Source: a virus
Strand: one strand, 5' to 3'
Virus record (IMG/VR): IMGVR_UViG_3300024348_000042
Span: 1-57,171 of that record
Length of the DNA stretch: 57,171 nucleotides
The notes under the pieces were generated by a model. It had not been told where the DNA came from, did not search any database, and worked only from the letters and a program-made list of their open reading frames with translations. The number at the start of each line of letters is the position of its first letter. The stretch's first letter is position 1. Positions 285 through 41,926 of the stretch are shown piece after piece. Position numbers and translations under genes: made by a program.

Positions 285-535
285 TTTAACTCTACCTCAT
301 TTCCACAACCACATTTTATAAGTATTGTTTCTGTCTCACTTCTGTTTGTCATGGAACTTCCACATTGATCACAAGTGCCTTTCTTTAATCTCATATAGTT
401 CCAACATGGCTCACAGTAGTGATATTGAAACTTGATATATTGGTCATATTCATGAGCTCCTAGTGTTGCTGTTTGACATTTGTCACAGGTATATGTTTCC
501 CCTGCGTTCAAGTGGTCATAGTATTCTTGGCTCAA
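278..535 (-). CDS. Small zinc-ribbon protein inside the tail-fibre operon
   Basis: 85 residues with four Cys pairs: CDKC, CEPC, CDQC and CGCG, enough for two zinc sites. It overlaps the fibre gene upstream by 4 bp and the partial fibre gene downstream by 7 bp, so it is translated within the tail-fibre operon. No enzymatic motif is visible. A chaperone or small structural zinc protein is possible, but its function is unknown. Confidence 0.8.
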   Translation of the reverse strand: MSQEYYDHLNAGETYTCDKCQTATLGAHEYDQYIKFQYHYCEPCWNYMRLKKGTCDQCGSSMTNRSETETILIKCGCGNEVELKW

Positions 536-2517
536 TTTGGTGTTGTCGCTCCATTGTAAATTATAAAGTCTTGTAATGAAAACTGTGTTGCTGTCCTACT
601 TGGATCATTAAAACCACAAAATTTTAAATATCTCATTCCTGTTGGTGATTGTTGTGATGTTGTAGCTTTACCCAATGATCCAGTAGAGTAATCTGAACCT
701 GTAAATAATTCACCTGTGACGTTAGTTCCATCACCTATAATTTCCCAATAAAGATCACCTGTTCCCCAATCATAAGAAATACCTGAGCTTTCCCCTGCCC
801 AGAATGTTCCATTATCTGTACTATGTACAAAAAATTTATTAGTGGAACTTCCACCTGTTCTATTTGTATCTATCCTAATACCTACTGCATCTTGAGGATT
901 AGGGGTTTTGGAACTATCGGTTAATGCACTTGATACTTGTAATAAAAGACTACTGCCTTTACTAGTATCTGAAAGATTATTATTCTTAGTTATTCTTGCC
1001 CTTATGATAAATTTATCATCTAAGTTATTTCCAGAACCAAAGTAAACTGCTTTTTGTAAGTCAATATATGAAACATCAAATGAACTAGATGCGATAGTTA
1101 AATCAATTTGATCATTAGTAGAATCATAAGATGAGTTAGTAGGAAATACCCACCCATTGTTAGTAGTTAAATCATCTTCGATTGTTGGGTTCATAGTCCA
1201 AGTGGCAGGTGTTGGTGGAACAGCTAATGAAGTATAGGTTACACCTGCTGTTGCAGTTCCATTATGTCCATTTCCACTTGTATCATTGGCATTAGATGTT
1301 AACTCATATCTTCTAAGTAAGTTTGTCGTACTTGGCTCACTATATTTTCCATTATTATATAATGCAGTTATTTCTGCCTGTGTAAGTACAGCACTATAAA
1401 CTAATAATTGTTGCAAGTTTCCATCAAATCCCCATTGGTAATAACCTCCAGAATCATTGTCTTTGTTAGCACCAATAGTACAGGTATTGTTAGTTCCAAC
1501 AGTTCCAAAGAAAGCATTGGTTGAAGCACTTCCTACTGAATATGATGGCGTTACTTGCGAACCGTTGACATATACTTTATTTCCTGATGAATTATTTGTA
1601 TAAACAACATGATTCCAAGCGTTTCTAGTAAGAGAATTTGGACAAGTAAACGTACAAATACCTGAACCGTTGTTTCTTGCAATTATTCCTACACCTGTAA
1701 CGTGTCCAACAAATCCTAGAGCAAATTCCCTTGAAGCTTGTGTATCATTAGAAGCACTTATCACAACATAATCCCCTGCACTCGTTGATTCAGTTTCGAG
1801 ATATATCCAAAATGATACTGAACCTGTTGACAAATTTGAAAGACCTGTTGTAGGAATATCTATGGTATCTGATACATCAACAGGTTGCTGTCCATGACCT
1901 TCAAAATGTGATGTAGTAGTTGGTGCTTCTCCTCCAGCAGTAAACCAATATCTTATTGCTGTATCTTTTTCAACAAACAAGGAATTGTCTTGTACGTTAC
2001 TTATTGCAGGTACGGCAGATGCTGGTGTTATGTCACTACCTAATGCTGTAAGGTTAGAATCAGTATCATAAGTTCCTTCTCCTGATTGATTATCTATTCT
2101 GTCTATTGTACTACTTGTATTTTCCCACTTCCAAACAAACTCTCCTCTTTCTGGAATACCACTTGATCCTGCTGATGGGCCTGAATTTATACCAAATCCA
2201 ATAGCTAGTTTTTCTGCTGATGATATTCCAAAAATATATGTAATTGAGAATTTATCAGCATCATCTCCACCCATATCATAAAATACAGTATTTGCACTTG
2301 TTCTAGTTCCATCAGATCCACCGTTCTCTGATTGTCTACTAGAATATGATGAACTAGAATTTTCATTGTTAAAATACCAAGTAGAATATGTATTTCCTGA
2401 TGCTCTCTTAGTATGTGACAAGACTACGTTAGTTTTTGAACTACCTAAATCAGATATATTCATGTTAGATCCTGCTGTTGTTAATGTGTCAGGTGTTCCG
2501 TTCTTTCCCCATGCCAT
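532..2517 (-). CDS. Tail-fibre protein with N-terminal virion module and LamG-like domain
   Basis: 661 residues. Residues 1-190 (MAWGK start, EKLAIGFG, RGEFVWKW, TALGSDITPASA) are a module shared with the protein at 4947-5897. Residues 215-390 look like a LamG/concanavalin-A-like lectin domain: GSVSFWIYL, NAWNHVVYT, KVYVNGSQ and FDGNLQQLLVYSAVLT are the usual strands of that fold. A second beta-rich region follows from about 445 (TMNPTIEDDLT to the end). Lectin-like domains on tail fibres typically bind surface sugars; a receptor-binding role is inferred. It abuts the next fibre gene with a 1-bp stop/start overlap. Confidence 0.82.
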   Translation of the reverse strand: MAWGKNGTPDTLTTAGSNMNISDLGSSKTNVVLSHTKRASGNTYSTWYFNNENSSSSYSSRQSENGGSDGTRTSANTVFYDMGGDDADKFSITYIFGISSAEKLAIGFGINSGPSAGSSGIPERGEFVWKWENTSSTIDRIDNQSGEGTYDTDSNLTALGSDITPASAVPAISNVQDNSLFVEKDTAIRYWFTAGGEAPTTTSHFEGHGQQPVDVSDTIDIPTTGLSNLSTGSVSFWIYLETESTSAGDYVVISASNDTQASREFALGFVGHVTGVGIIARNNGSGICTFTCPNSLTRNAWNHVVYTNNSSGNKVYVNGSQVTPSYSVGSASTNAFFGTVGTNNTCTIGANKDNDSGGYYQWGFDGNLQQLLVYSAVLTQAEITALYNNGKYSEPSTTNLLRRYELTSNANDTSGNGHNGTATAGVTYTSLAVPPTPATWTMNPTIEDDLTTNNGWVFPTNSSYDSTNDQIDLTIASSSFDVSYIDLQKAVYFGSGNNLDDKFIIRARITKNNNLSDTSKGSSLLLQVSSALTDSSKTPNPQDAVGIRIDTNRTGGSSTNKFFVHSTDNGTFWAGESSGISYDWGTGDLYWEIIGDGTNVTGELFTGSDYSTGSLGKATTSQQSPTGMRYLKFCGFNDPSRTATQFSLQDFIIYNGATTPN

Positions 2518-3584
2518 TAGTTACTACCCCACACTTTGATAAAAGAACCTGTCGCCCATTGTCCTGTACTTATAGCATCACAATCTATTTCTGTTATTTG
2601 TGCTGATGTGTTTGCCCATTTCCCAAAAACTTCTCCTCTATCTGGAGCTGTTCCTGCTCCTGTAGCACTATTTCTAATATAATGACCGATTGCCAATTTT
2701 TCATTTGAACTATTATTTATAATAAACATATTATAAAATCCACCACTATCCCAATCTTCGCCACCACCATCAGCATATATGGCATCTCCACTAGCGTAAG
2801 TTTCATCAGATCCACCATCATGTGAAAGTCTTGTAGCGTAATTATTTCCACTATCATTATTGAATTTGAAATCAGGTCTAATAACACCACCTGTTGCTTT
2901 TCCCCATACTTGAACCCAAAGATATTTCTTAGCAGTTATAGTTCCACTTGATAAATTATCTCCTGCACTTGATAATTCTACACTAGCCAATTCTTCCCAG
3001 AAATTTGTAGTATGAGTGTCATCTGGATCATATCCAAGTACGACCACTTCTGAGCCACTTGCTAAATCTCCATTTCCTAAATTATTATATCCTAATATAT
3101 CCATCACACTTGTTCCTGTCCACTTGAAAACACTCTCCTGTCTAGCTGGTGCATTACCTGCTCCATTTCCACCATTGTTCATTATATGACTAATTCCTAG
3201 TTTTCCTTGTGATGATTTGTTTGCAATATAATTTACACCAAATATCGGTTTTGTTTTTCCTGTTACATCAACCCATTGAACATGATAAGTATTAGATTGT
3301 GTAACCTCAGATCCCCCATCAGTTGACCATCTTTCTCCATAGTTAGCACTTGAATCTAAAGATGAATTGCCTAGTCTTAATGCAGGTTGAATATTACCTG
3401 AATCTTGAAAATCACTTAAAACCATATAGTATCGTTTATCAGGAATTGATGAAACATTAAGATCATCTCCTGCACTACCTAAAGTAGTTCTAGCTACTTC
3501 TTTCCAACCACCTAAAACAGCAGGTGTACCTACTCTATCTGCATTGGTTCCAACTATTCTTTTACTGTCTTGGTATATGGTCAT
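2517..3584 (-). CDS. Tail-fibre protein made of two tandem virion modules
   Basis: 355 residues containing two copies of a ~150-residue module. Each copy has a W(K/E)E(V/L)A start, an AGDxL strand, a K-Y-aromatic segment, an NYxxRxSxDGGS turn, an EKLxIxH segment and a GAGxAPxR...KW.(N/G)TS end. The first copy resembles the partial protein at 1-284. The C-terminus ends IKVWGSN, like the protein at 5897-7600 (MKVWGSN). It overlaps the coiled-coil gene by 4 bp. It is probably a beta-sandwich fibre or tail-tip subunit; no enzymatic motif is visible. Confidence 0.78.
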   Translation of the reverse strand: MTIYQDSKRIVGTNADRVGTPAVLGGWKEVARTTLGSAGDDLNVSSIPDKRYYMVLSDFQDSGNIQPALRLGNSSLDSSANYGERWSTDGGSEVTQSNTYHVQWVDVTGKTKPIFGVNYIANKSSQGKLGISHIMNNGGNGAGNAPARQESVFKWTGTSVMDILGYNNLGNGDLASGSEVVVLGYDPDDTHTTNFWEELASVELSSAGDNLSSGTITAKKYLWVQVWGKATGGVIRPDFKFNNDSGNNYATRLSHDGGSDETYASGDAIYADGGGEDWDSGGFYNMFIINNSSNEKLAIGHYIRNSATGAGTAPDRGEVFGKWANTSAQITEIDCDAISTGQWATGSFIKVWGSN

Positions 3585-4372
3585 TGTGGTTTCGTTGCTC
3601 CCTGTGCCATAAATCCTTCTGAACCTAACTCGTCTAGTCCTATTCTAGATAATGCATCTTGATAGGAATCCTTGAACTCCTCTGCCATAGCATCTAAAAA
3701 TTCATACATATCTCTTATTGTTACCTTTGAACTACTATTAATCTTTTCTTGAATTAGTACCAAGTAGGATCTTGTTCTTGTTTCTGCCAACTGTGGGTGT
3801 ATTCCTAACTGTTCCCAATATTCTACAACTGCCTTTGATACTCTACCACCTGCTGACAAGTCCTGTATAGCCAATCTGAATGATGAACGTACCATGTTTG
3901 CAATCTCCTGTTTCTCAAAGTCTTTCTCATTCCAGTTGTCAGGGATATTGTTATTTTTCTTTATACTGTCATACATATCTTGGAACATTCCGATTTCCTT
4001 TAATGCACTATTCATTGATATTGTAATCATTTCAATCTGTGACTCATATTCCTGTACCACTAACCTTGAATGAGCATCGGTTTGTTTTCTTAGTCTTTGT
4101 ATTGTAAGTTTTTTCTTTTCAATATTGTAGTATGCTTCTTGTAAAGCCTTGTACTTTTTGTCTATCTGTGCAAGACATTGTTTCATTCTGCTTAATGGGG
4201 AATCACTAATCATCTGCATTGTTTGTAAAGAGTAACTGCTTTGTGATGTGGAATGTCCAATAAGTGAACTTCCTCTCTTGTACTCTGGGAGTCTTTCTGT
4301 AATTCTTGCGATTTGTTTTTCATCTAAAGTTGCCAAGTCAGTTACCTTGCTGAATAATTCTATATTGGTCAT
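3581..4372 (-). CDS. Coiled-coil protein in the tail-fibre operon, function unknown
   Basis: 263 residues, mostly helical. Residues 75-140 form a predicted coiled coil (YYNIEKKKLTIQRLRKQ onward). The rest is Gln/Met-rich helix with no signal peptide or catalytic motif. It is flanked by fibre genes with 4-bp overlaps on both sides, which suggests a virion or tail-assembly role such as a fibre chaperone or adaptor. That is contextual inference only. Confidence 0.75.
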   Translation of the reverse strand: MTNIELFSKVTDLATLDEKQIARITERLPEYKRGSSLIGHSTSQSSYSLQTMQMISDSPLSRMKQCLAQIDKKYKALQEAYYNIEKKKLTIQRLRKQTDAHSRLVVQEYESQIEMITISMNSALKEIGMFQDMYDSIKKNNNIPDNWNEKDFEKQEIANMVRSSFRLAIQDLSAGGRVSKAVVEYWEQLGIHPQLAETRTRSYLVLIQEKINSSSKVTIRDMYEFLDAMAEEFKDSYQDALSRIGLDELGSEGFMAQGATKPQ

Positions 4373-4947
4373 TCTCTTAATGCTCCTGTGTCACTTAAAC
4401 CTGCCAAATTACTTCTTGCTTGTGTCAAATCTCCAAAGTCACCTGCATTCCCTAATGTTGCTATGGTAATGTAATCTATTGCAGTTCTGACACTTCCACC
4501 ACCATTTGTATATTTTCCACCTGCAATTAATCCTCTTGTTTCAGATGAAGCTTGACCTGCACTTGATCTACCTTCTGTCAAGTTACCAAAGTCAGTAGAG
4601 TTACTTGGTGTTGCAATAGTAATGTATTCTATTATGTTATTATAACCACCACTATTAGTACCACCACCTATTGACATAATACCTCTAGTTCCATTTGAAA
4701 TAAGTCCATTAGCTGCATTATAACTACCTGATGTCAAAGTTCCAAATGTAGTTGCATTTGACAACGGAGTATTTCCCATTGTAACATAATCCATAGTTTG
4801 TTCACCAGATTCTCCACCCATAAATACTCCTCTAGTGTCATTGTTAGTTGAACCAAAAGCTTTTCTTGCTACTGTCAAATCTCCGAAATCTGTTGTATTG
4901 CCTAGAGTATCGATAGTTACATAAGCTATTCTGGTTGTCTTTGCCAT
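4369..4947 (-). CDS. Kelch-like propeller repeats, C-terminal half of a split fibre protein
   Basis: 192 residues containing four repeats of a kelch-like blade with the signature YVTIxTLGNxTDFGDLTxAR followed by a TRGxxxGG turn. Such repeats are frequent in marine virus fibre proteins. Its start overlaps the stop of the gene at 4947-5897 by 1 bp (TAATG), and the blade interrupted there continues almost in register, so the two ORFs appear to encode one propeller. Either translation is coupled to give two chains, or a frameshift or indel near the GGGGG run at about 4960 splits one gene. Confidence 0.75.
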   Translation of the reverse strand: MAKTTRIAYVTIDTLGNTTDFGDLTVARKAFGSTNNDTRGVFMGGESGEQTMDYVTMGNTPLSNATTFGTLTSGSYNAANGLISNGTRGIMSIGGGTNSGGYNNIIEYITIATPSNSTDFGNLTEGRSSAGQASSETRGLIAGGKYTNGGGSVRTAIDYITIATLGNAGDFGDLTQARSNLAGLSDTGALRE

Positions 4948-5897
4948 TAAGTTTCTCCCCCTGCAATAAATCCTCTAGTGTTATTACCTACTGAAGTACA
5001 ACCGTGAGTTGTTGTTCCATCTTGTGCTATATCTCCAAAGTCCGTAGCGTTACTTGGTGTTGCAACAGTAATATAATCAATAATATTGGAAACACTACTA
5101 GAATATCCACCAAAGAATAGACCTCTTGTTTTGTTTGAAGTAGCACCATAAGCCCTTCTAGCAACTGACATATCTCCAAAGTCAGTTGCATTTCCTAATG
5201 TATCGATTGTAACATAATCAATATTACTAGTATTGTTATTATTATATCCAGTACCAAATACACCTCGACCACCTGCATAGGGTAAAGTGCCAAGCTCAAA
5301 CCACTTGTCAGTTACATAATCAGAATTCATTCTGTAATATATCTTTCTTGTATCTGTAATTTCTGCTCTGCTTCCAAGTTCTACATTTTCTGGGAATGGT
5401 ATTGCACTAGCAGGTGTTATGTCACTACCTAATGCTGTAAGGTTTGAACCTGTTAAGAAATCACCTGTTCCCCCATTAGTAGCATCTATCTCTGTAATTT
5501 GTGCTGATGTGTTTACCCATTTACCTGCATACTCTCGTCTTGTTGGTGCATTTCCTGCTCCTGCTGTGTTTGCTCCCATTGACCACATTAAAAATAGTTT
5601 TTCTTCTGCTGATATGTTAATACAATACATAAGCCAAGAATTATCTGTTGTATTAGAAGCAGTATGAGTAAATACATTACTACCTGATGTTTGTGTAGAA
5701 TCAGATCCCCCATCAGAAGAATATCTGTAAGCATAATTAGATCCTGTGTCATTGTTGAATGTGATTAATGGTTCTGTTTGTCCACTTGCTAAAGTATGAG
5801 ATATGAAAAAATTGGACAAATTTGCAGGTAAATCAGTAATTGTCATAAGATCGCCTGTACCTGTTAAAGTATCAGAACCTGCTTTTCCCCATGCCAT
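4947..5897 (-). CDS. Tail-fibre protein: virion module plus first kelch-like blades
   Basis: 316 residues. Residues 1-175 match the N-terminal module of the protein at 532-2517, including the TALGSDITPASAI linker. From about 215 two and a half kelch-like blades follow (YVTIDTLGNATDFGD, YITVATPSNATDFGD), ending abruptly at FIAGGET. The next ORF resumes the propeller. Swapping a LamG domain for a propeller behind the same N-terminal module looks like modular exchange of receptor-binding heads. Confidence 0.78.
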   Translation of the reverse strand: MAWGKAGSDTLTGTGDLMTITDLPANLSNFFISHTLASGQTEPLITFNNDTGSNYAYRYSSDGGSDSTQTSGSNVFTHTASNTTDNSWLMYCINISAEEKLFLMWSMGANTAGAGNAPTRREYAGKWVNTSAQITEIDATNGGTGDFLTGSNLTALGSDITPASAIPFPENVELGSRAEITDTRKIYYRMNSDYVTDKWFELGTLPYAGGRGVFGTGYNNNNTSNIDYVTIDTLGNATDFGDMSVARRAYGATSNKTRGLFFGGYSSSVSNIIDYITVATPSNATDFGDIAQDGTTTHGCTSVGNNTRGFIAGGET

Positions 5898-7600
5898 TAG
5901 TTGCTACCCCAAACTTTCATTATTGATGTTGATGATAGAGTATTGCTACCACCAGAACCGAACCCAATTATATTGATTTGATTACTCGTATTAGCCCACT
6001 TTGCAACAAATTCTCCTCTATACGGTGCGTTACCTGCACCTGCTGTACCACCTGCGTTTTGATGAATAATTAATAACTTTTCATTAGCCGAATTATTAAT
6101 TATAAATATATTGTAAAATTCTTTCAACCCTGCTGTTCTTAATGATATTTTTGTTTGACTTGTCAATGTATCATCTGTACCACCGTCAGCACTTCTTCTT
6201 CTGGAATAATTACTCCCAGTATCTAAAGTTGTATTACCTACTGTAATTTCTCCGTTAGAAGCATCAGCACTTCTATCGACATATATCTGAACCCAAAGAT
6301 ATTTTTTAGCAGTAAATGTACCTGAATTAAATGAAGTTGCACCTGTTCCATTCACACTAGCTAATTCTTCCCAGAAATTGTCAGTATGAGTATCGTCAGG
6401 ATCATAGCCAAGTACGACACATTCTGAACCTGCATCATAATTCCCTGAATGGGAGTTAAATTTTGTTATTGCAGAAACAGCACTTGATGTATTTGCCCAT
6501 TTACCAACTGTTTCAATTCTTGACGGAGCTGTACCTGCTCCTGTTGCTGGGTTTTCATTTACATGAGATGTTGTTAGTTTTTCTTTTGATGATAAATTTG
6601 TAATATATTCGACACCAAAATCACCAATTTGAGCTCCTGTATCTGATTGGGATATAAAAGTTTGTGATACTGATGTTGAATCTGATGCACCATTTAATGC
6701 TCTCCTCCATGCATAATTACTACCTGTATCAGAATTTAATCTGGTATTATTAAGTATGTACCCAGAAGCCTTTAAATCTGCTAAAACCATATAATATCTT
6801 TTATCATCTAAACTTGAAACTTCAATATTATCTGTTACTCCTATTGATTGATTATTCCAAAATTCTACATCTTTGATATATCCTTCCATATCTCCTGATG
6901 TTGCTGTTGTACCATCCATTACTGTAATATATCTTAAAGCATTAAGTGACGTACTTGCATTGGTAAATGAGCCACTATAAATATCTCCATCAAATGCATT
7001 TGTATTTGACAATGATGCCGACCAATCAGTTGCAGATTTTCTTTGGAACTCAATGAAGTAATCCTTACCTGTTGTAAATGCAGGACTAGGATTATGACTG
7101 GCACTAGCTCCTCGTCTTGGTTTTTCAGCAATACATTTTCTTGGTCTAAACAAGTTGTTAGCTGCCATTGGCAATATTCTACATCCTATAAAGTCCTGAT
7201 CTGTATCTGAGTTTGCATGGTTATCTGATATACCAATATCAATTTCAGGATAATCTGATTGAGTTGCTATCGTGGTAAATCTTAGTTTGAATCTTAATAT
7301 CCATTTGGTTTCACTTACTCCTACTCCCAAATCATACCAACATCTATCTCCACCTGATGAGGCATTTTCTAAAAATTCTAATCTATCTGTTGTAGTGTTT
7401 ACTTTAAATTGTGAATCACTTGGGGATTTACTCCAATTATCTGCACCTGTAAAATCATCACTAAATGTTGCTGAACCTGATGGTGATGTCGATATTGTAG
7501 TTCTACCTAGTTCTTTCCAACCACCTGAAATAGCAGGTATACCAGCTAAATCTGTACTTGTTCCCTGAATCCTTTCACCAGAATGATAAGTAACTGTCAT
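5897..7600 (-). CDS. Tail-fibre protein with inserted LamG-like domain
   Basis: 567 residues. The N-terminus (GGWKELGRTT) and the segment SSLDDKRYYMVLADL belong to the same module as in 1-284 and 2517-3584, but about 185 residues (roughly 41-225) are inserted between them. The insert begins FSDDFTGADNWSK and has beta-sandwich character resembling LamG-like domains. A second full module follows (EELASV to MKVWGSN). It is the largest of the two-module paralogues. Role in adsorption is inferred from module architecture and position. Confidence 0.78.
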   Translation of the reverse strand: MTVTYHSGERIQGTSTDLAGIPAISGGWKELGRTTISTSPSGSATFSDDFTGADNWSKSPSDSQFKVNTTTDRLEFLENASSGGDRCWYDLGVGVSETKWILRFKLRFTTIATQSDYPEIDIGISDNHANSDTDQDFIGCRILPMAANNLFRPRKCIAEKPRRGASASHNPSPAFTTGKDYFIEFQRKSATDWSASLSNTNAFDGDIYSGSFTNASTSLNALRYITVMDGTTATSGDMEGYIKDVEFWNNQSIGVTDNIEVSSLDDKRYYMVLADLKASGYILNNTRLNSDTGSNYAWRRALNGASDSTSVSQTFISQSDTGAQIGDFGVEYITNLSSKEKLTTSHVNENPATGAGTAPSRIETVGKWANTSSAVSAITKFNSHSGNYDAGSECVVLGYDPDDTHTDNFWEELASVNGTGATSFNSGTFTAKKYLWVQIYVDRSADASNGEITVGNTTLDTGSNYSRRRSADGGTDDTLTSQTKISLRTAGLKEFYNIFIINNSANEKLLIIHQNAGGTAGAGNAPYRGEFVAKWANTSNQINIIGFGSGGSNTLSSTSIMKVWGSN

Positions 7601-29236: not shown

Positions 29237-31141
29237 TCAACGCCAACCTCCACCTGTGCCGACCCAATTATATCCTTGTCGAACTTCAAGTGCCTTTGTT
29301 GAATATATCATTGCCATTAGAGAATCCTTTGGATGGTTGAACTGTTTTCTTGCCCTTTGTCTGCCATCTGGCTTGTCCTCGTCAATCTTATCCGTTAAGT
29401 CTTTTCTTGTTAAGTTTGTAAGATCAGAATAAATAAAGTCAATCTTTTGTTTGCTGTAAGGTTCTGCTGGAAACATTAACTTGTGTTTTCTCTTGTCCAT
29501 ATTGTATCTGTCATCTGGATCATCAACCATGATTCCCATTAGATCAATAAATTCCTGTATTGCCGTTGTCTTGTCTATCTTAAGATGTTCTCGAATTTCC
29601 CCATGCTCGTCTATCTTTTTGTTGAATTGTAATACGTTCTTTGTTTCATCCCCGATACTTCTGCAACCGAAAAAGTTGGAACTTCCAACTCCATTGAACG
29701 GATGTCCAGTAAGTCTGTCAGTTCCTCCGTCTTGAATCTGCTGAACCTGTATTGCTCCGTAACCCAGATCACCAACCCCAATATCACACTGGCATTCGTT
29801 GAAAAGTTCTGCAATATACTTTGCCTGATCAAGTTGGTTTTCTGCTGGTCTTGGTTCCAAGTGAACAAGTTGGTATCTGCTAATCTTGTCTTGTGTAAGT
29901 GTTTCTGGTTGCAAAATCCATTCTATCATAATACTGATTACTGTTTGTGATGGGTTTCCACTTCCAAAGTCCACACCCATTGTTATTGTTACTTCCTTTC
30001 CGAACTGATCCTTGATGTCAGCAATTTCCCACGGATCCATTATCTTCAGTCCTTCATTGCCATAAAACAAATTGTCGATCATTTCTCTTGTAATTGGTCT
30101 GCGTTCTGCATGGTAAAATCCACCCATTACGTGGCTTGTAAAAAGATGTGGACTCATTTTTTGTCTCTTTGCTTCTATTGCATATTTCTTGTCAATGTTA
30201 TACATTTTTGGATTTGTTGCATCTGCCGTACTTAGTGGAATATGTGGAATAATTGTTTGTGGAATATGGAATCCATGCCAATCCCTGCTCTTTTGTGGCT
30301 CGTTTGCTCTCCATCTTCCTGACATTATTCCCATCAACCTGTCATCTGCAATTAATCCCCACTTGGTCTTTTCTGTATCTTCATCTTTAATCTCTCCAAA
30401 TATCAGATCATTTCTCCAACCTTGACCCTGAAATACAACTCCTGCCGAATCTATATAATCTTCACTGTTGTCAAACACCCATTGTCTTTGATCCGTATCA
30501 CGCCATAATTGTTCATATGGAGATCCACTTTCTCCACCTACTCCAAGTACGCTTACTTTTCCCTGAGTAATTGTCATCACGAGAGGAATACGGTCAAAGT
30601 ATTGCATATCCTGATATTGTGCTTCGTCAAGCATAATATGAGCTGCTGATTTTCCCTCTACGTGATGATATTGACCATGATCTGTTGTAATATAAATTGT
30701 ACTATTATTCTTTAAAGAAATTTCCCCTACGTTACCTAGTCTATTTCTTGGAAACTTTTTTAGAACATCTGAACCGTCAAACGTTCCAATTTGTAATTTT
30801 TGTCTTGAAAATCCAGCTTTGTTAATGTCATCGTATGTTACATAAACTAACTGTGTATTTCTTTTAGTCGTTGCTTCATGTGCAAGTACATCGGTGGTAT
30901 ATGTAGACTTAAAAATCTGACGACCTCCAAGAATAAATTTATTGTTAAAGTTGTCATTATATATATCTCGCCAAGGTGGCATTATAACTCTTTTTTTGCC
31001 CTCTGCCTTTGGTCTTATTTCCCTTATCCAGTCCAGAATATCCACAGGTACTTTTGGAAGTTCCTCTCGATTTGCAAGATCCTTCTTGAAATATCTGTCA
31101 GGTATTCCCCAAACTTCGGGCATATCATGGTATATAAACAT
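29237..31141 (-). CDS. terL: Terminase large subunit (packaging ATPase/nuclease)
   Basis: 634 residues, complete. The Walker A-like GGRQIFKST lies at 72-80 (G in place of the more usual position, as in many TerL), and Walker B HIMLDEAQ at about 168-175. The coupling region is GGESGSP near 207. The RNase H-like nuclease starts with TMGVDFGSGN near 390, with further acidic residues around GVGDLGYG and HPKDSLMAMI. It drives ATP-dependent DNA packaging and cleaves concatemers. It stands apart from other packaging genes; the probable small subunit is ~15 kb away. Confidence 0.95.
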   Translation of the reverse strand: MFIYHDMPEVWGIPDRYFKKDLANREELPKVPVDILDWIREIRPKAEGKKRVIMPPWRDIYNDNFNNKFILGGRQIFKSTYTTDVLAHEATTKRNTQLVYVTYDDINKAGFSRQKLQIGTFDGSDVLKKFPRNRLGNVGEISLKNNSTIYITTDHGQYHHVEGKSAAHIMLDEAQYQDMQYFDRIPLVMTITQGKVSVLGVGGESGSPYEQLWRDTDQRQWVFDNSEDYIDSAGVVFQGQGWRNDLIFGEIKDEDTEKTKWGLIADDRLMGIMSGRWRANEPQKSRDWHGFHIPQTIIPHIPLSTADATNPKMYNIDKKYAIEAKRQKMSPHLFTSHVMGGFYHAERRPITREMIDNLFYGNEGLKIMDPWEIADIKDQFGKEVTITMGVDFGSGNPSQTVISIMIEWILQPETLTQDKISRYQLVHLEPRPAENQLDQAKYIAELFNECQCDIGVGDLGYGAIQVQQIQDGGTDRLTGHPFNGVGSSNFFGCRSIGDETKNVLQFNKKIDEHGEIREHLKIDKTTAIQEFIDLMGIMVDDPDDRYNMDKRKHKLMFPAEPYSKQKIDFIYSDLTNLTRKDLTDKIDEDKPDGRQRARKQFNHPKDSLMAMIYSTKALEVRQGYNWVGTGGGWR

Positions 31142-31194: not shown

Positions 31195-32271
31195 CTAGAG
31201 TCCTAATACATCAACCATAACTTTCAATTGATCCATTGCTACTGCGTACCAATTGTTAGCTAATTGTTTCCATTGATCTCTGTCATTAGTGAGTGTTACA
31301 ACTTGTGCTTCCAAATTAGCAATCTTGCTATCTAGAACACTTGTATCACTTGCTGAAACTACTTTGGCATTCAACTCTGCAATCGTTGTTGTTGCTGTAA
31401 CGTTTGCATTGTTTAGTGTCACAATCTGTGATTCCAAGTCTGCAATTTTTACATCCAACGTTGTATCATCTTGCAGTGATGTGATTGTTGCAAGTTGTGT
31501 TGCTGTTTGGTTTCCTAATGAAACTATTTGTGCATTAAGTTCGTCTTTCTCTTGTTGTAGAGATAAAACAGTCTGCTCCAATGTTGTAACTGATGTTGCT
31601 GTCGTGTTAAGGCTTCCAATCTGTGTAGTTAGTGATTGTACTTGGTTGTTATGATTATCTATTGCAACTTTTTGATCTGCAAGTTTTGTAATAGAGTCAT
31701 TGAACTGTGCTGTTACTTCTGCAAGTTGTGTTTGCAAAGTAACAATATCGACATTGCCTTCATATTCTGCTACATTGAATATTGCATCATCTGATATTGA
31801 TTCAAATGTTCCAAGTGTTACGTCACTTGTTGCACCAAAGTCAACTTGTTCCTCGACTATTGGTTCTGGAGTTGGTTCTACAACTACAGGTGCTACATAG
31901 ACAGGTGCTGGTGGTGGTGCAACGTATGGCTTTACAATTTCAATTGTACTTTGTTGCATACCGTTTAGATCAGATATGTAATACATACCTTCAGTAAAAC
32001 AAGTAGTTCCACAGTTTACAACTGGAAAATTCAATGCGATTGCATCGTTTACAGGAATTGTTCCCTCAAACCAACCGTGACTTACAAAGTTGATTGTGTT
32101 TTCACCATTGTTGTGTATGATTATCTCTCCACCTTCTTCAACAGTAACATTGAATGGATAGACATCAACATTGACATAACTGGTTCCATCTCCTTCAATT
32201 GCGTAAGCATTTCCCATGCTTATTGTTGCAATCAAGGTCATGACCATTAATGCTGTGATTGTTTTCATCAT
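31195..32271 (-). CDS. Secreted cupredoxin-like protein with long coiled coil
   Basis: 358 residues. A signal peptide (MMKTITALMVMTLIATISMG, cleavage after NAYA) precedes a ~90-residue beta domain like a cupredoxin (YPFNVTVEEGGEIIIHNN, NFVSHGWFEG, CGTTCFTEGMYYISD). A full blue-copper ligand set is not evident: the usual His after the Cys is missing. A Pro-rich linker (PPPAPVYVAPVVV) leads to repeated heptads (LTTQIGSL, LEQTVLSLQQEKDELNAQI) to the end. Thaumarchaea use many cupredoxins, so host-surface or virion-exterior function is likely. Own T-rich terminator. Confidence 0.75.
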   Translation of the reverse strand: MMKTITALMVMTLIATISMGNAYAIEGDGTSYVNVDVYPFNVTVEEGGEIIIHNNGENTINFVSHGWFEGTIPVNDAIALNFPVVNCGTTCFTEGMYYISDLNGMQQSTIEIVKPYVAPPPAPVYVAPVVVEPTPEPIVEEQVDFGATSDVTLGTFESISDDAIFNVAEYEGNVDIVTLQTQLAEVTAQFNDSITKLADQKVAIDNHNNQVQSLTTQIGSLNTTATSVTTLEQTVLSLQQEKDELNAQIVSLGNQTATQLATITSLQDDTTLDVKIADLESQIVTLNNANVTATTTIAELNAKVVSASDTSVLDSKIANLEAQVVTLTNDRDQWKQLANNWYAVAMDQLKVMVDVLGL

Positions 32272-36744: not shown

Positions 36745-37095
36745 CTAAATAGATGCAAGTGATCCATCTTTCAAACTGATATCCTCTAACACATGATCTG
36801 CTCTCGAAATCATTTCTTTTTCTTGTTCTTTTGTGATATCAGATCTACTGCCAGTGACAAATTCAGACTTGGTTCTTAACAGTTTGAGATCTTTCTCGTC
36901 TTGCTCGATTAACGGAGCAAATTCACTACATCGCACACTTACAAAAGCAGTTGGATCTTTTTTTGAAATATCACCCAACAAACTTAGTATTTCTTGTAAT
37001 CGAGGTTGTGCATGGTCTATCTCGATTATCAGTTTTATGTCATCAGGATGTTCTGTTTCCAGATCTCCTTTGATGACTTTACCTCTTTGTTTCAT
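36745..37095 (-). CDS. Uncharacterised protein under operator control
   Basis: 116 residues from MKQRGKVIKGDLE at 37095. The longer frame would begin MYYLRYS, but those codons are just the operator read through, and the same artefact occurs at several operator genes. Mixed alpha/beta, charged. Function unknown. Confidence 0.62.
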   Translation of the reverse strand: MKQRGKVIKGDLETEHPDDIKLIIEIDHAQPRLQEILSLLGDISKKDPTAFVSVRCSEFAPLIEQDEKDLKLLRTKSEFVTGSRSDITKEQEKEMISRADHVLEDISLKDGSLASI

Positions 37096-37097
37096 AC

Positions 37098-37113
37098 TAT
37101 ACCTTAGATAATA
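37098..37113 (-). promoter_or_regulatory. Operator palindrome of the 36745-37095 gene
   Basis: TATACCTTAGATAATA, followed by the TATA box CTTAATAAACC at 37116-37126. It is one of the clearest copies and gives the consensus spacing: TATA box, ~4 bp, operator, 2 bp, start codon. Confidence 0.8.
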
Positions 37114-37132
37114 CACTTAATAAACCTATTGA

Positions 37133-38038
37133 TTAGTCAGATTCGGTTTTGTCTAATCTTAACTCGACAAATACTGGTAAGAATAATGATTTGCTATCTG
37201 CTCCTTTTCTTGAGATTACTCCGTTACATTTTACTGTAATGATAGTTCCAATTAATTCTTCTTGTCTAGCCCAAATGTCTTTTCTGGTTGCATCATCTAA
37301 TCCAGTTCCAACACTGGTCTTGATTGAACCGTCTTTGTTCTCGACTTGAATTGCTCCAGTCATTCCACTTGCCTTTCCAGTACCTTCTGCAAATCCAGTT
37401 ATCTTTAAGTCCATCTCGATTACTTCCTTCATCTTGACACATTGTTTGGATCTTTTATCTTCCCAAGGGTGGTCATTGTTCTTTAAGATAATACCTTCTT
37501 CGCCTTTTGCTAACTGTTCTTTGAATAATTCCTGTGCTTCTTCCAAGTTTGCAATCTCGAATGTTTGTACTACTTCAAATAATGGGTTTGCTGGAATTGC
37601 TCTTAATCTTGATAATCTTTCGACTCCAGTTCGTCTATCGACACCTTTGTCAAAGTCACATACATCAATTAAATCCCATGCTGTAAATCTTACTCTTGCA
37701 ACTTCCTCATCACTTACAGTTTCAACTACGGTCTTGTTTAAGATACCATTGCCAGTTTTTCGGTCTAATAATTTGCCTTCACTGTCAACTACGGTTAATT
37801 CTCCGTCTAACACAACATTGTCAATACTTGATAAAACTGCTTCAAAGTGTTTGTCCAACTTTGTCATTGTGTTTCCATTTCTGCTGAAAACCACGACTCT
37901 GCCGTCACGTTTTACTATTACTCCTCTCATGCCATCCATCTTGGTTTGTGCGAAACATGGGAATTGTATTCTGCCAATTTCCTTGTTTGGACTTACCAAC
38001 ATTACTGGTATTTTGACTTGTGCGTTGCTTTTAGACAT
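37133..38038 (-). CDS. ATP-dependent DNA ligase
   Basis: 301 residues. Motif I is QTKMDGMRG with lysine 33 as the expected AMP acceptor. VVLDGEL (near 98), EGIILKN (near 197) and KQCVKMKE (near 212) are motifs III, IV and V. An OB-fold like C-terminus follows. A compact single-catalytic-core ligase, as in viruses. It seals nicks in viral DNA, probably with the kinase at 52320-52811 and the HAD phosphatase. The gene has an operator promoter. Confidence 0.9.
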   Translation of the reverse strand: MSKSNAQVKIPVMLVSPNKEIGRIQFPCFAQTKMDGMRGVIVKRDGRVVVFSRNGNTMTKLDKHFEAVLSSIDNVVLDGELTVVDSEGKLLDRKTGNGILNKTVVETVSDEEVARVRFTAWDLIDVCDFDKGVDRRTGVERLSRLRAIPANPLFEVVQTFEIANLEEAQELFKEQLAKGEEGIILKNNDHPWEDKRSKQCVKMKEVIEMDLKITGFAEGTGKASGMTGAIQVENKDGSIKTSVGTGLDDATRKDIWARQEELIGTIITVKCNGVISRKGADSKSLFLPVFVELRLDKTESD

Positions 38039-39256: not shown

Positions 39257-40078
39257 TTAGATTGCAACTAATCTAGCCTTTTTAGTGACAACTACCATTG
39301 AGATAATTGCTACTGCTAGTATCATCATTGCGATTGTACCAAACTCTGGAATTACATATGTTCCAATTATTTCTATACTACCTGCTTCTGCCACAAATGG
39401 TATAGTTATTGTTCGGTCTAGATCTGTTGCAACTTCGGTGTATTCGGTTTCATAACCGTCTACAAGTACAAAGAATACTTCATCAACCCCATCAATAGTT
39501 GAGTCAATGACATCTCTTGGAAGTGTAAGGACTATTTCTCCACCGTCTGCATTTATCAAGTCAACTGTGATTGATAGTGCTTCAGGATCGTTGTATATTG
39601 AATCTACTTCTCCACCAGATATTTCATATGCAATATCTGAAAGTGATGGTTGTGGTTCTTCGGTATATTCTAACAAAGTTCCATATCCAAATGTCGTAGA
39701 TGTTTCAAATCCTTGACTTGTTGAAGTTATTGTATATGTACCAGCATTGCCATATAATGCTCCACCAACAGTAATTGCTGTTGAATAATTTCCTTCCAAG
39801 TCTGTTTCGACTTGTGCTACTGTGATCAAGTTGCCGTTAGGTGCTGTGACCATTAAAATTATTGGAGTTATAGTGCTGTGTCCACTTACTTCAATTGTTT
39901 CTACTCCCTGATAATCAGGTTTGTCTGTTGCAACAGAAATGCTTTCCTTCTCTACTTGGATTTGACTTTGGGCTTCTTGAAATTCCAAAGTGTATTCCAT
40001 TCGAGGAGTTTCAGCACTTATTCCACTAATGCTTCCCACAATAATAATTGCAGTCAGCATCGTTAGTAATACTTTCAT
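39257..40078 (-). CDS. Secreted surface protein with PEFG-CTERM anchor
   Basis: 273 residues. A signal peptide (MKVLLTMLTAIIIVGSISG, cleavage after SAE) leads to two beta domains; the second (SDIAYEISGGEVDSI to RTITIPFVAEAGSIEIIGTY) recurs in 41504-41926. The C-terminus is VIPEFGTIAMMILAVA followed by hydrophobic residues and KKARLVAI: a PEFG motif, membrane helix and basic tail. PEFG-CTERM is a thaumarchaeal archaeosortase signal, so the protein is probably processed and anchored on the host surface. Superinfection exclusion or surface remodelling is inferred. Confidence 0.85.
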   Translation of the reverse strand: MKVLLTMLTAIIIVGSISGISAETPRMEYTLEFQEAQSQIQVEKESISVATDKPDYQGVETIEVSGHSTITPIILMVTAPNGNLITVAQVETDLEGNYSTAITVGGALYGNAGTYTITSTSQGFETSTTFGYGTLLEYTEEPQPSLSDIAYEISGGEVDSIYNDPEALSITVDLINADGGEIVLTLPRDVIDSTIDGVDEVFFVLVDGYETEYTEVATDLDRTITIPFVAEAGSIEIIGTYVIPEFGTIAMMILAVAIISMVVVTKKARLVAI

Positions 40079-40114
40079 TACAAGAATAAAAAATAAAGAT
40101 TATAAAAACCTTTG

Positions 40115-40393
40115 TCACTGTGGTTTTATCATATCCATAACTTGTGAAAGATTGATTCGTTCAAATCCTTCCAATTTATGTTCAAAGTCTCCAACTTTAC
40201 TCCACATATCCATGTCTAAAATCATGGAAATTTCTCCACGTAATTGATGACTTTTTACTTCTTCTACTGCTCTAATAATTCCTACACCACCTTGCATCAT
40301 TGTTCTTTTTTGTTCACCAGTTGCAGAAAAAGAAATTACTACAAACTCGGTGTTTTTTACCTTGTTTAGTTGTTTCATTGTTGTTTTATTCAT
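40115..40393 (-). CDS. Uncharacterised protein under operator control
   Basis: 92 residues, mixed alpha/beta (EFVVISFSATGEQKR, a Gly-rich loop, then KLEGFERINLSQVMDMI). The fully palindromic operator lies directly upstream. No recognised domain. Confidence 0.58.
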   Translation of the reverse strand: MNKTTMKQLNKVKNTEFVVISFSATGEQKRTMMQGGVGIIRAVEEVKSHQLRGEISMILDMDMWSKVGDFEHKLEGFERINLSQVMDMIKPQ

Positions 40394-40396
40394 ATC

Positions 40397-40412
40397 TATA
40401 CTCTAGAGTATA
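40397..40412 (-). promoter_or_regulatory. Perfect 16-bp operator palindrome
   Basis: TATACTCTAGAGTATA is fully self-complementary; it lies 4 bp from the start codon, with TATA box CTTAATAAACC at 40415-40425. This copy shows the symmetry of the element most clearly. Confidence 0.82.
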
Positions 40413-40430
40413 CCCTTAATAAACCTATGT

Positions 40431-40456
40431 AAAATAAAAAAAATAAAAGAAAAAAG
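40431..40456 (-). terminator. T-rich terminator after the gene at 40459-41460
   Basis: Interrupted T-tracts on the minus strand directly follow the stop codon of the secreted protein, as after the other secreted gene and the virion genes. Confidence 0.58.
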
Positions 40457-40458
40457 GG

Positions 40459-41460
40459 TTATTCCCCATTTCGGATTTGATTTTGAACAAAGTTGTTGTT
40501 CATAATCATTTCGTATGCGATTGGCTCTGCTAATTTCTCAGCGTTTGCCTTATCTTCATCAGTTGCAACTTTGTTTCCATAGGATTCCATGAAGGCATGA
40601 TACTCTGTGAGTAATTCACTTTCATAATGTATTACACCATCAGTTCCAAATCTAGCTTCGTTCTCTGCTTTGATTTGTTCTAATGTCTTACCATCATACA
40701 AAACTTCACACCCGAATTGTGCTTGGTGTGTTAGTGGATATTGATTGTTTCCACAAATTAGTGATTTGTCAATGTTTCTGTGTGTTGCAGTGTGGTCATC
40801 AAAGTTTAGTGCTTGTACGCCTTCAAAGTGTTCTAACAAACTGAATTGTTTGTCATCTTCACCAGTTGGCATTCCTGCATATCCTTGTCCAACTACTTTG
40901 AGTAGTTTTTGTTGTCCACGACATTCTTCTACTGCCATTACAAGATCACCTAGATGACCTTCAACTGGAACATTGTTGACTTGCCATAAATTGAACTCTG
41001 AAATCTCAAACTCTCTTGCTTCTTGGAATGGTGCTGTTTGTCGATCCATACCTTGTTTACAAGTGTTCAATTCTTTCAAGAGATTCATGTAGACACTATC
41101 CGTTACAGTTGCAATTCCTTTTGCTAACTTTTCTTCAATCTCTTGGATTGTTTTCTCGTTAGGTGTTAGTTTTGCTTTTTCTTCTGCAATTTCTGCTAGT
41201 GCTTGTTCATTGAGTTTTTGGATCTCTTGATCATATCTTTCTTCTGTCAAAAGGTCTTTGTAATTCTCAAGATCTTCTAATGTATAGACCTCTTTGAATC
41301 CTTGCCAAACACATTGAAACTCTACTGACAATTCATCAAAAGTACAAGTTGATCCGTGTGAATCAAATGGTATTTCAACTGTTGCTGTTTCTGCATATAC
41401 GGCTCCAGTCATACCAATTGTTATTAGTGCAACTATCGCCATTATGTTTTGTTTCGTCAT
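40459..41460 (-). CDS. Secreted Cys-containing helical protein
   Basis: 333 residues. Signal peptide MTKQNIMAIVALITIGMTG with likely cleavage after VYAE. The mature part begins with a CTFDELSVEFQCVW hairpin, then a long charged helix (LTEERYDQEIQKLNEQALAEI), and further Cys that could form disulfides. No CTERM anchor. Similar host secreted proteins exist in Thaumarchaeota as far as I recall. Strong separate expression is suggested by its own terminator. Confidence 0.7.
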   Translation of the reverse strand: MTKQNIMAIVALITIGMTGAVYAETATVEIPFDSHGSTCTFDELSVEFQCVWQGFKEVYTLEDLENYKDLLTEERYDQEIQKLNEQALAEIAEEKAKLTPNEKTIQEIEEKLAKGIATVTDSVYMNLLKELNTCKQGMDRQTAPFQEAREFEISEFNLWQVNNVPVEGHLGDLVMAVEECRGQQKLLKVVGQGYAGMPTGEDDKQFSLLEHFEGVQALNFDDHTATHRNIDKSLICGNNQYPLTHQAQFGCEVLYDGKTLEQIKAENEARFGTDGVIHYESELLTEYHAFMESYGNKVATDEDKANAEKLAEPIAYEMIMNNNFVQNQIRNGE

Positions 41461-41503
41461 TACGAACTATTGGTTAAATTACGTCTTATAACTGTTACGT
41501 AGG

Positions 41504-41926
41504 TTATATTCTAAGCATCGTACCTAATGCCAAATCCTCATCTATTGTAACAAGTTCGTTAATTGTTTCAGTTCCAATTATCTCTATCTGTCTTGATTCT
41601 TTTGCATATGGAATTGTCAAAGTCCTTTGGTTGTCCTCTATGGTTTCTGTAAACTTGCATTCCTCCCCATCAATTAGCAAATAGAAAATATCGTCTTGTT
41701 CTTCGTGTTTGCTGTCAATTATTTTTCTTGGCAGTATTGCCTTCAATGATCCACCTTCAGTTGCCGTGATATTTATTATTAACGAAGTTGTATTTGTGTC
41801 ACTTGTAAAACTATTTACACTGCCTGATGTTATTTCATACTCTATCTGCAAACTTTGTTCTTCTGTTGTTATTTCCCCATTGCCCGATACAATTAGTATC
41901 ATTAATGGAACTAGAAATGTTTTCAC
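41504..41926 (-). CDS. Secreted paralogue of the PEFG protein's second domain, no anchor
   Basis: 140 residues from a GTG start. Signal peptide (MKTFLVPLMILIVSG), then a domain matching residues ~145-245 of the PEFG protein: YEITSGSVNSF versus YEISGGEVDSI, LKAILPRKIIDS versus IVLTLPRDVIDS, FYLLIDGEE versus FFVLVDGYE, RTLTIPY versus RTITIPF, IEIIGT shared. It lacks the PEFG motif and membrane helix and should be released. Together they look like an anchored/soluble pair. Confidence 0.78.
   Translation of the reverse strand: MKTFLVPLMILIVSGNGEITTEEQSLQIEYEITSGSVNSFTSDTNTTSLIINITATEGGSLKAILPRKIIDSKHEEQDDIFYLLIDGEECKFTETIEDNQRTLTIPYAKESRQIEIIGTETINELVTIDEDLALGTMLRI

Follow-up and report, generated by a model that had tools for sequence, protein, structure and literature searches.

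Why would a tailed virus encode a protein with the cell-surface sorting tag of thaumarchaea, together with a shorter relative that lacks the tag? The question arises from the window, the whole stretch of 57,171 bp analysed here, which is IMG/VR record IMGVR_UViG_3300024348_000042.

Viral setting of the locus

The window is viral DNA. Two of its genes serve as reference points throughout:

29237-31141, terminase large subunit (phrog_675 match, 1e-19)
37133-38038, DNA ligase, ATP-dependent

Further viral-type matches in the record include polynucleotide kinase, DNA methyltransferases, MazG and Prim-Pol. Near-identical stretches recur in further IMG/VR records from other metagenomes, and in a related virus (L006/L011) the terminase is 94% and the PEFG gene 73% identical to those of the window. 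The host probably belongs to the Nitrosopumilaceae (ammonia-oxidising archaea, AOA), because homologues of the terminase sit in Nitrosopumilaceae genomes, with best matches at 42-50% identity, and because the PEFG family is thaumarchaeal. Some of these integrated homologues (L171-L180, L185-L197) adjoin ordinary host genes, and little else in their vicinity is recognisably related to the window virus; they resemble the TerS-TerL remnant NitKor-E1 (PMC6563490). PEFG proteins near three such homologues (L189, L190, L194) were not counted as viral, since they are surrounded by host genes (for example aspartate dehydrogenase and NadA).

The earlier note on this DNA, made from the sequence alone, had named two findings that would speak against its proposal, a host-chromosome origin and the lack of a PEFG model hit, and neither applies. 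The terminase, the flanking viral genes and the viral relatives point the other way. The reading of the locus as host DNA misplaced in a viral record can draw on the fact that the protein family is a host family, but viral genes flank the PEFG gene in the window, in the near-identical records and in the relative with the 94% identical terminase, and the host copies are found near rpoH, with identities that do not exceed 49%. We reject this reading as having a negligible probability; only an assembly error common to all records could rescue it.

Other parts of the record merit description in their own right. Just upstream of the terminase gene, 31195-32271 (-) encodes another exported viral protein, of 358 aa, with a signal peptide and a long coiled coil; its first part looks cupredoxin-like by eye. 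Several large proteins encoded in 532-7600 (-) share repeats with one another, for example a 'SGIPERGE/NAPTRRE' stretch, and one of them carries a laminin-G-like lectin domain; judging from these features, they are likely tail fibres built by internal duplication. The gene at 36745-37116 (-) shows a dS of 0.13 against L006:3206-3550, with neighbouring genes at 0.43-0.96, a low value that suggests recent exchange.

The PEFG-CTERM protein and its host source

The tagged protein and its parts are as follows:

39257..40078 (-), PEFG-CTERM surface protein of 273 aa, an ATG ORF with signal peptide, two beta domains and anchor
40010..40078 (-), signal peptide, aa 1 to about 23, in which the hydrophobic residues 1-23 finish with ISAE
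39677..39946 (-), MG2/Ig-like beta-sandwich domain, aa 45-134 (pLDDT about 66-89)
39356..39637 (-), second beta domain, aa 148-241, which precedes PEFG in many thaumarchaeal surface proteins
aa 242-273, PEFG-CTERM anchor of the protein
39269..39355 (-), PEFG-CTERM sorting signal (TIGR04296; 45.8 bits, 4.1e-13 in a six-frame search)
40090..40105 (-), candidate TATA box TTATAATCTTTATTTT, of presumed function, about 24 bases before the start codon

The C-terminus reads VIPEFG, followed by a hydrophobic helix and then KKARLVAI. TIGR04296 matches the protein at residues 242-270 with 41.4 bits (E 8e-11), against a curated cut-off of 25 bits, and the six-frame search of the record with this model gave no second match above the cut-off. 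The tail is hydrophobic over residues 240-273 (Kyte-Doolittle up to 2.66), with a predicted helix of 28 residues at 245-272. This ORF is the sole one with PEFG plus a hydrophobic tail in the six frames of the window. We rejected a chance occurrence of PEFG, given the score above the cut-off and the yield of 200 shuffles of the window, which was one such ORF in all. By its score, by the order of its tail (PEFG, helix, basic residues) and by its signal peptide, the product reads as an intact PEFG-CTERM protein. Two claims of the earlier note, that the protein ends in PEFG, a hydrophobic helix and a basic tail and that the thaumarchaeal sorting signal occurs on a virus-encoded protein, are thus confirmed by the model match and by the viral nature of the record.

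Structure prediction, which that note had also called for, modelled the beta domains of both proteins, with pLDDT of about 66-89 for the first domain here and of about 90 or higher for most of the domain in the 140-aa relative. About 100 residues superpose on the macroglobulin domain 2p9r (TM (target) 0.68-0.71, rmsd 2.6-2.7); from the length of the match, this similarity probably belongs to the first, MG2-like domain. A fold search with the second domain gave no confident match, and a fold search in BFVD returned nothing informative.

Full-length homologues of the 273-aa protein are present in 249 of 250 Nitrosopumilaceae genomes. The best host homologue is 49% identical over residues 45-270, and the top matches lie at 45-49% over residues 44-271. 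Among the fetched loci, 28 of the 40 best host ORFs fall within 400 bp of rpoH, and in the two genomes that were read the source orthologue is the first of four consecutive PEFG genes that adjoin rpoH-rpoB. This run (L167, L168) is bracketed in both genomes by the same aminotransferase-like gene and is near-universal. The best host matches thus represent one orthologue, mostly near rpoH, and the virus therefore carries a diverged copy of a specific, near-universal host surface gene. The viral copy is flanked by viral genes and is not beside rpoH-rpoB, as expected of a captured copy. It shares with the rpoH-adjacent protein (about 290 aa) the signal peptide, the MG2/Ig-like domain, the second domain and the PEFG-CTERM. 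In contrast to that protein, it is virus-coded and stands outside the host four-gene cluster, its first-domain loops are 3-4 aa shorter, it lacks the final PRY-like residues and its N-terminal linker is longer.

The second domain was found in all 101 host genomes sampled, mostly in several copies each. Host proteins L066, L084, L118 and L134 join a cupredoxin domain to this same second domain plus PEFG, and for this reason the second domain looks like a general membrane-proximal module.

Selection on the gene was estimated by region with the Nei-Gojobori method, comparing the window virus with L006. Omega is 0.06 for the PEFG tail, which is 97% identical to that of L006, 0.17 for the signal peptide, 0.27 for the MG2-like domain, 0.32 for the second domain, about 1 for the short linker and 0.35 for the whole gene; for the same pair of viruses it is 0.04 for the terminase and 0.05 for the ligase. 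Within the protein, constraint is tightest in the anchor tail, which is under strong purifying selection, and the ectodomain drifts faster than the core genes yet is still constrained. The gene, and with it the anchor, has therefore been kept. Since the viral tail is conserved while the ectodomain drifts, the comparison also supplies evidence from evolution that the PEFG signal functions as a single unit. The L006 protein itself passes TIGR04296 (39.3 bits), and the TATA-like block at 40090-40105 is kept in L006 although the upstream neighbour gene differs.

A search for the gene in other viruses, likewise suggested earlier, succeeded for L006 but not beyond a small clade: in IMG/VR the PEFG gene was found only in the clade of the window virus, in scans that used the host-plus-virus alignment and the second domain alone and that could miss PEFG proteins with other domains. 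Two further pattern hits, L017 and L018, were rejected as viral PEFG proteins; they come from bacterial phages, and their IPEFGTIA is a chance match in the interior of the protein. In the wider virus group, the stretches around the 333-aa gene described below contain neither a PEFG gene nor a second-domain protein except in the clade itself, and the PEFG gene is therefore best regarded as an accessory gene of this small clade.

The anchorless relative

Upstream of the PEFG gene lie two further genes on the same strand:

40459..41460 (-), exported protein of 333 aa with signal peptide, between the 273-aa and 140-aa genes
41504..41926 (-), anchorless protein of 140 aa related to the second domain (begins with GTG; its signal peptide is weak)
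41567..41848 (-), beta domain common to both proteins, here in the 140-aa one (mostly at a pLDDT of about 90 or higher)

The 333-aa protein has 19 loci in IMG/VR at 54-100% identity and none in 250 host genomes, in a search run without a positive control in hosts; on these matches, its gene belongs to a wider virus group and not to the hosts. The protein is kept across a large group of marine viruses (L201-L216), for which it is a possible marker gene.

The 140-aa protein is, by its sequence, an anchorless relative of the second domain. It aligns with residues 149-249 of the 273-aa protein at 42% identity over 101 aa (E 3e-25), and its domain core is 42-48% identical to other second domains. 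Its motif site is T-I-N-E-L-V-T-I, against V-I-P-E-F-G-T-I in the relatives, and DEDLALGTMLRI stands in place of the anchor helix. No NCBIfam model matched it, TIGR04296 included, and no hydrophobic 19-mer follows the motif site. The absence of an anchor proposed in the earlier note is therefore borne out. The same pattern sets it apart among relatives. In a set of 159 second-domain ORFs, fetched by the IPEFGTIA pattern and hence biased toward PEFG, a complete sequence lacking a PEF motif is seen solely for the viral 140-aa protein, in two records; among the host ORFs, three have PEFS and another is truncated at VVPE. Host single-domain PEFG proteins of about 170-190 aa share with it a signal peptide and a lone beta domain. 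All 13 of them that were found without the IPEFGTIA pattern keep PEFG and the helix, both of which are missing from the viral form.

The origin of the 140-aa gene can be read in more than one way. In a tree of 105 second domains its domain groups with the viral domain (support 92/84), and when host single-domain forms are added under a mixture model this grouping vanishes; AU tests reject neither origin, with p of 0.44 for duplication within the virus and 0.41 for a relationship to the single-domain forms. Of the earlier claim that the gene duplicates the second domain, the homology thus stands, while the trees and tests leave room for capture of a second host gene. The further claim that one form is displayed and another released holds as far as tagged and tagless forms exist. 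Release itself is less secure, because the signal peptide of the 140-aa protein is short and weak, its N-terminus is modelled as a low-confidence strand and the S-layer could retain the product.

These features also bear on whether the 140-aa gene is a decaying copy or a separately caught second host gene, so that only the 273-aa protein matters. The weak signal peptide, the tag degraded to INELV, the long branch and an origin that differs between trees are all in keeping with that reading, and the near-identical records offer no variation on which selection could be tested. However, the sequence is identical and its frame intact in the three records that cover the gene, and the conserved core has a confident predicted fold, so we consider such decay or separate capture somewhat unlikely. 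The L006 contig ends inside the 333-aa gene, before reaching the position of the 140-aa gene.

A possible role at the surface of the infected cell

From the viral origin of the gene, its homology to an orthologous host family, its intact and constrained tag and the lack of that tag in the short form, the following course of events may be proposed. A Nitrosopumilaceae virus would have captured the two-domain PEFG-CTERM gene that most hosts carry next to rpoH-rpoB, and would have retained it. During infection, the 273-aa protein would be exported via its signal peptide and anchored in the membrane through its PEFG-CTERM tail. The host archaeosortase would process the tail, provided that the pathway works as in haloarchaea, and the protein would be displayed on the cell surface, either replacing the host version or alongside it. 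The 140-aa product, as the membrane-proximal domain without an anchor, would most likely be exported in soluble form and compete for the partners with which that domain interacts. As for the benefit, our best guess is an altered surface that keeps the same virus, or its rivals, from adsorbing again.

To our knowledge, PEFG processing has been shown in no thaumarchaeon. We infer anchoring by the host because no sortase was found in the viral record and exosortase-family (PF09721) matches occur in many hosts (34 of 61 host genomes, 10 of them over the cut-off of a general model that is weak for this lineage). In Haloferax, it is established that PGF-CTERM S-layer proteins depend on an archaeosortase for their processing, according to work cited in PMC8875312.

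These data suggest a surface change imposed by the virus on the cell it infects. That a captured host surface protein is shown on the infected cell and changes its surface, most likely against re-adsorption, is a reading we favour tentatively, as quite possible though short of probable, because a diverged copy of an envelope protein offers a virus few other advantages and because a similar idea has been proposed for a Halorubrum PGF-CTERM protein (PMC10544981). The earlier note had suggested surface masking or superinfection exclusion; the sequence shows no feature specific to either. A more elaborate version is decidedly doubtful: the anchored form would replace the host surface protein via the host archaeosortase, the soluble form would strip or cap the partners of domain-sharing host proteins, of which there are several per genome, and the cell would be closed to further viruses.

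The main rival to a surface change is upkeep of the envelope, in which the viral copy, much like an auxiliary gene, tops up a needed host surface protein as host synthesis fails, until virions are ready. The near-universal presence of the source family in Nitrosopumilaceae agrees with this, as do the rise of PEFG-CTERM and S-layer proteins under peroxide stress in Nitrosopumilus (PMC6593220) and the carriage of other host genes, such as amoC, by marine AOA viruses, as stated in PMC11849493. Yet an identity of 45-49% with shortened first-domain loops is far from plain replacement, and the stretches seen of the wider virus group lack the gene, so that we regard upkeep as unlikely. Even less probable is a part in the virion or in egress, with the proteins acting in adsorption, S-layer crossing or release and not against other viruses. 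The virus does code several exported proteins (31195-32271, 40459-41460), and the fast evolution of the ectodomain recalls receptor-binding proteins, but the PEFG gene sits among DNA-metabolism genes such as the ligase, away from the terminase and from the tail-protein-like region with its lectin-like domain (0.5-9 kb). Moreover, tailed virions have no membrane for the PEFG helix, and related viruses manage without the gene.

What this analysis adds is that the 273-aa protein is homologous over its full length, at up to 49% identity, to the product of a single, identifiable host surface gene. Little is known of how AOA viruses handle the host envelope, and AOA are among the commonest marine cells. 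The viral copy singles out a near-universal host surface protein as one that viruses care about, possibly as a receptor or lattice partner.

The earlier note had thought such a use of host sorting not described. In a library of 5.39 million papers accessible without subscription, we found no virus paper on PEFG-CTERM, and neither of the two papers using the term was about viruses, although a close idea exists outside virus-encoded genes. Hlac_3088 of Halorubrum lacusprofundi, a small, S-layer-like, transposon-borne PGF-CTERM protein, has been proposed to hide a virus receptor (PMC10544981). Like the viral 273-aa protein, it is a small sorted surface protein on a mobile element; unlike it, it is a transposon-borne cell gene with another sorting tag and from another phylum, and for both proteins exclusion is only proposed.

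A second parallel comes from bacteria. Llp of T5 and Ltp of TP-J34 are phage surface lipoproteins for superinfection exclusion, with proven function. Whereas these proteins use bacterial lipoprotein anchors, the viral 273-aa protein carries an archaeal sorting tag and has a proposed role. With the role proposed here they share that they are virus-coded and shown on the infected cell through the export and anchoring routes of the host.
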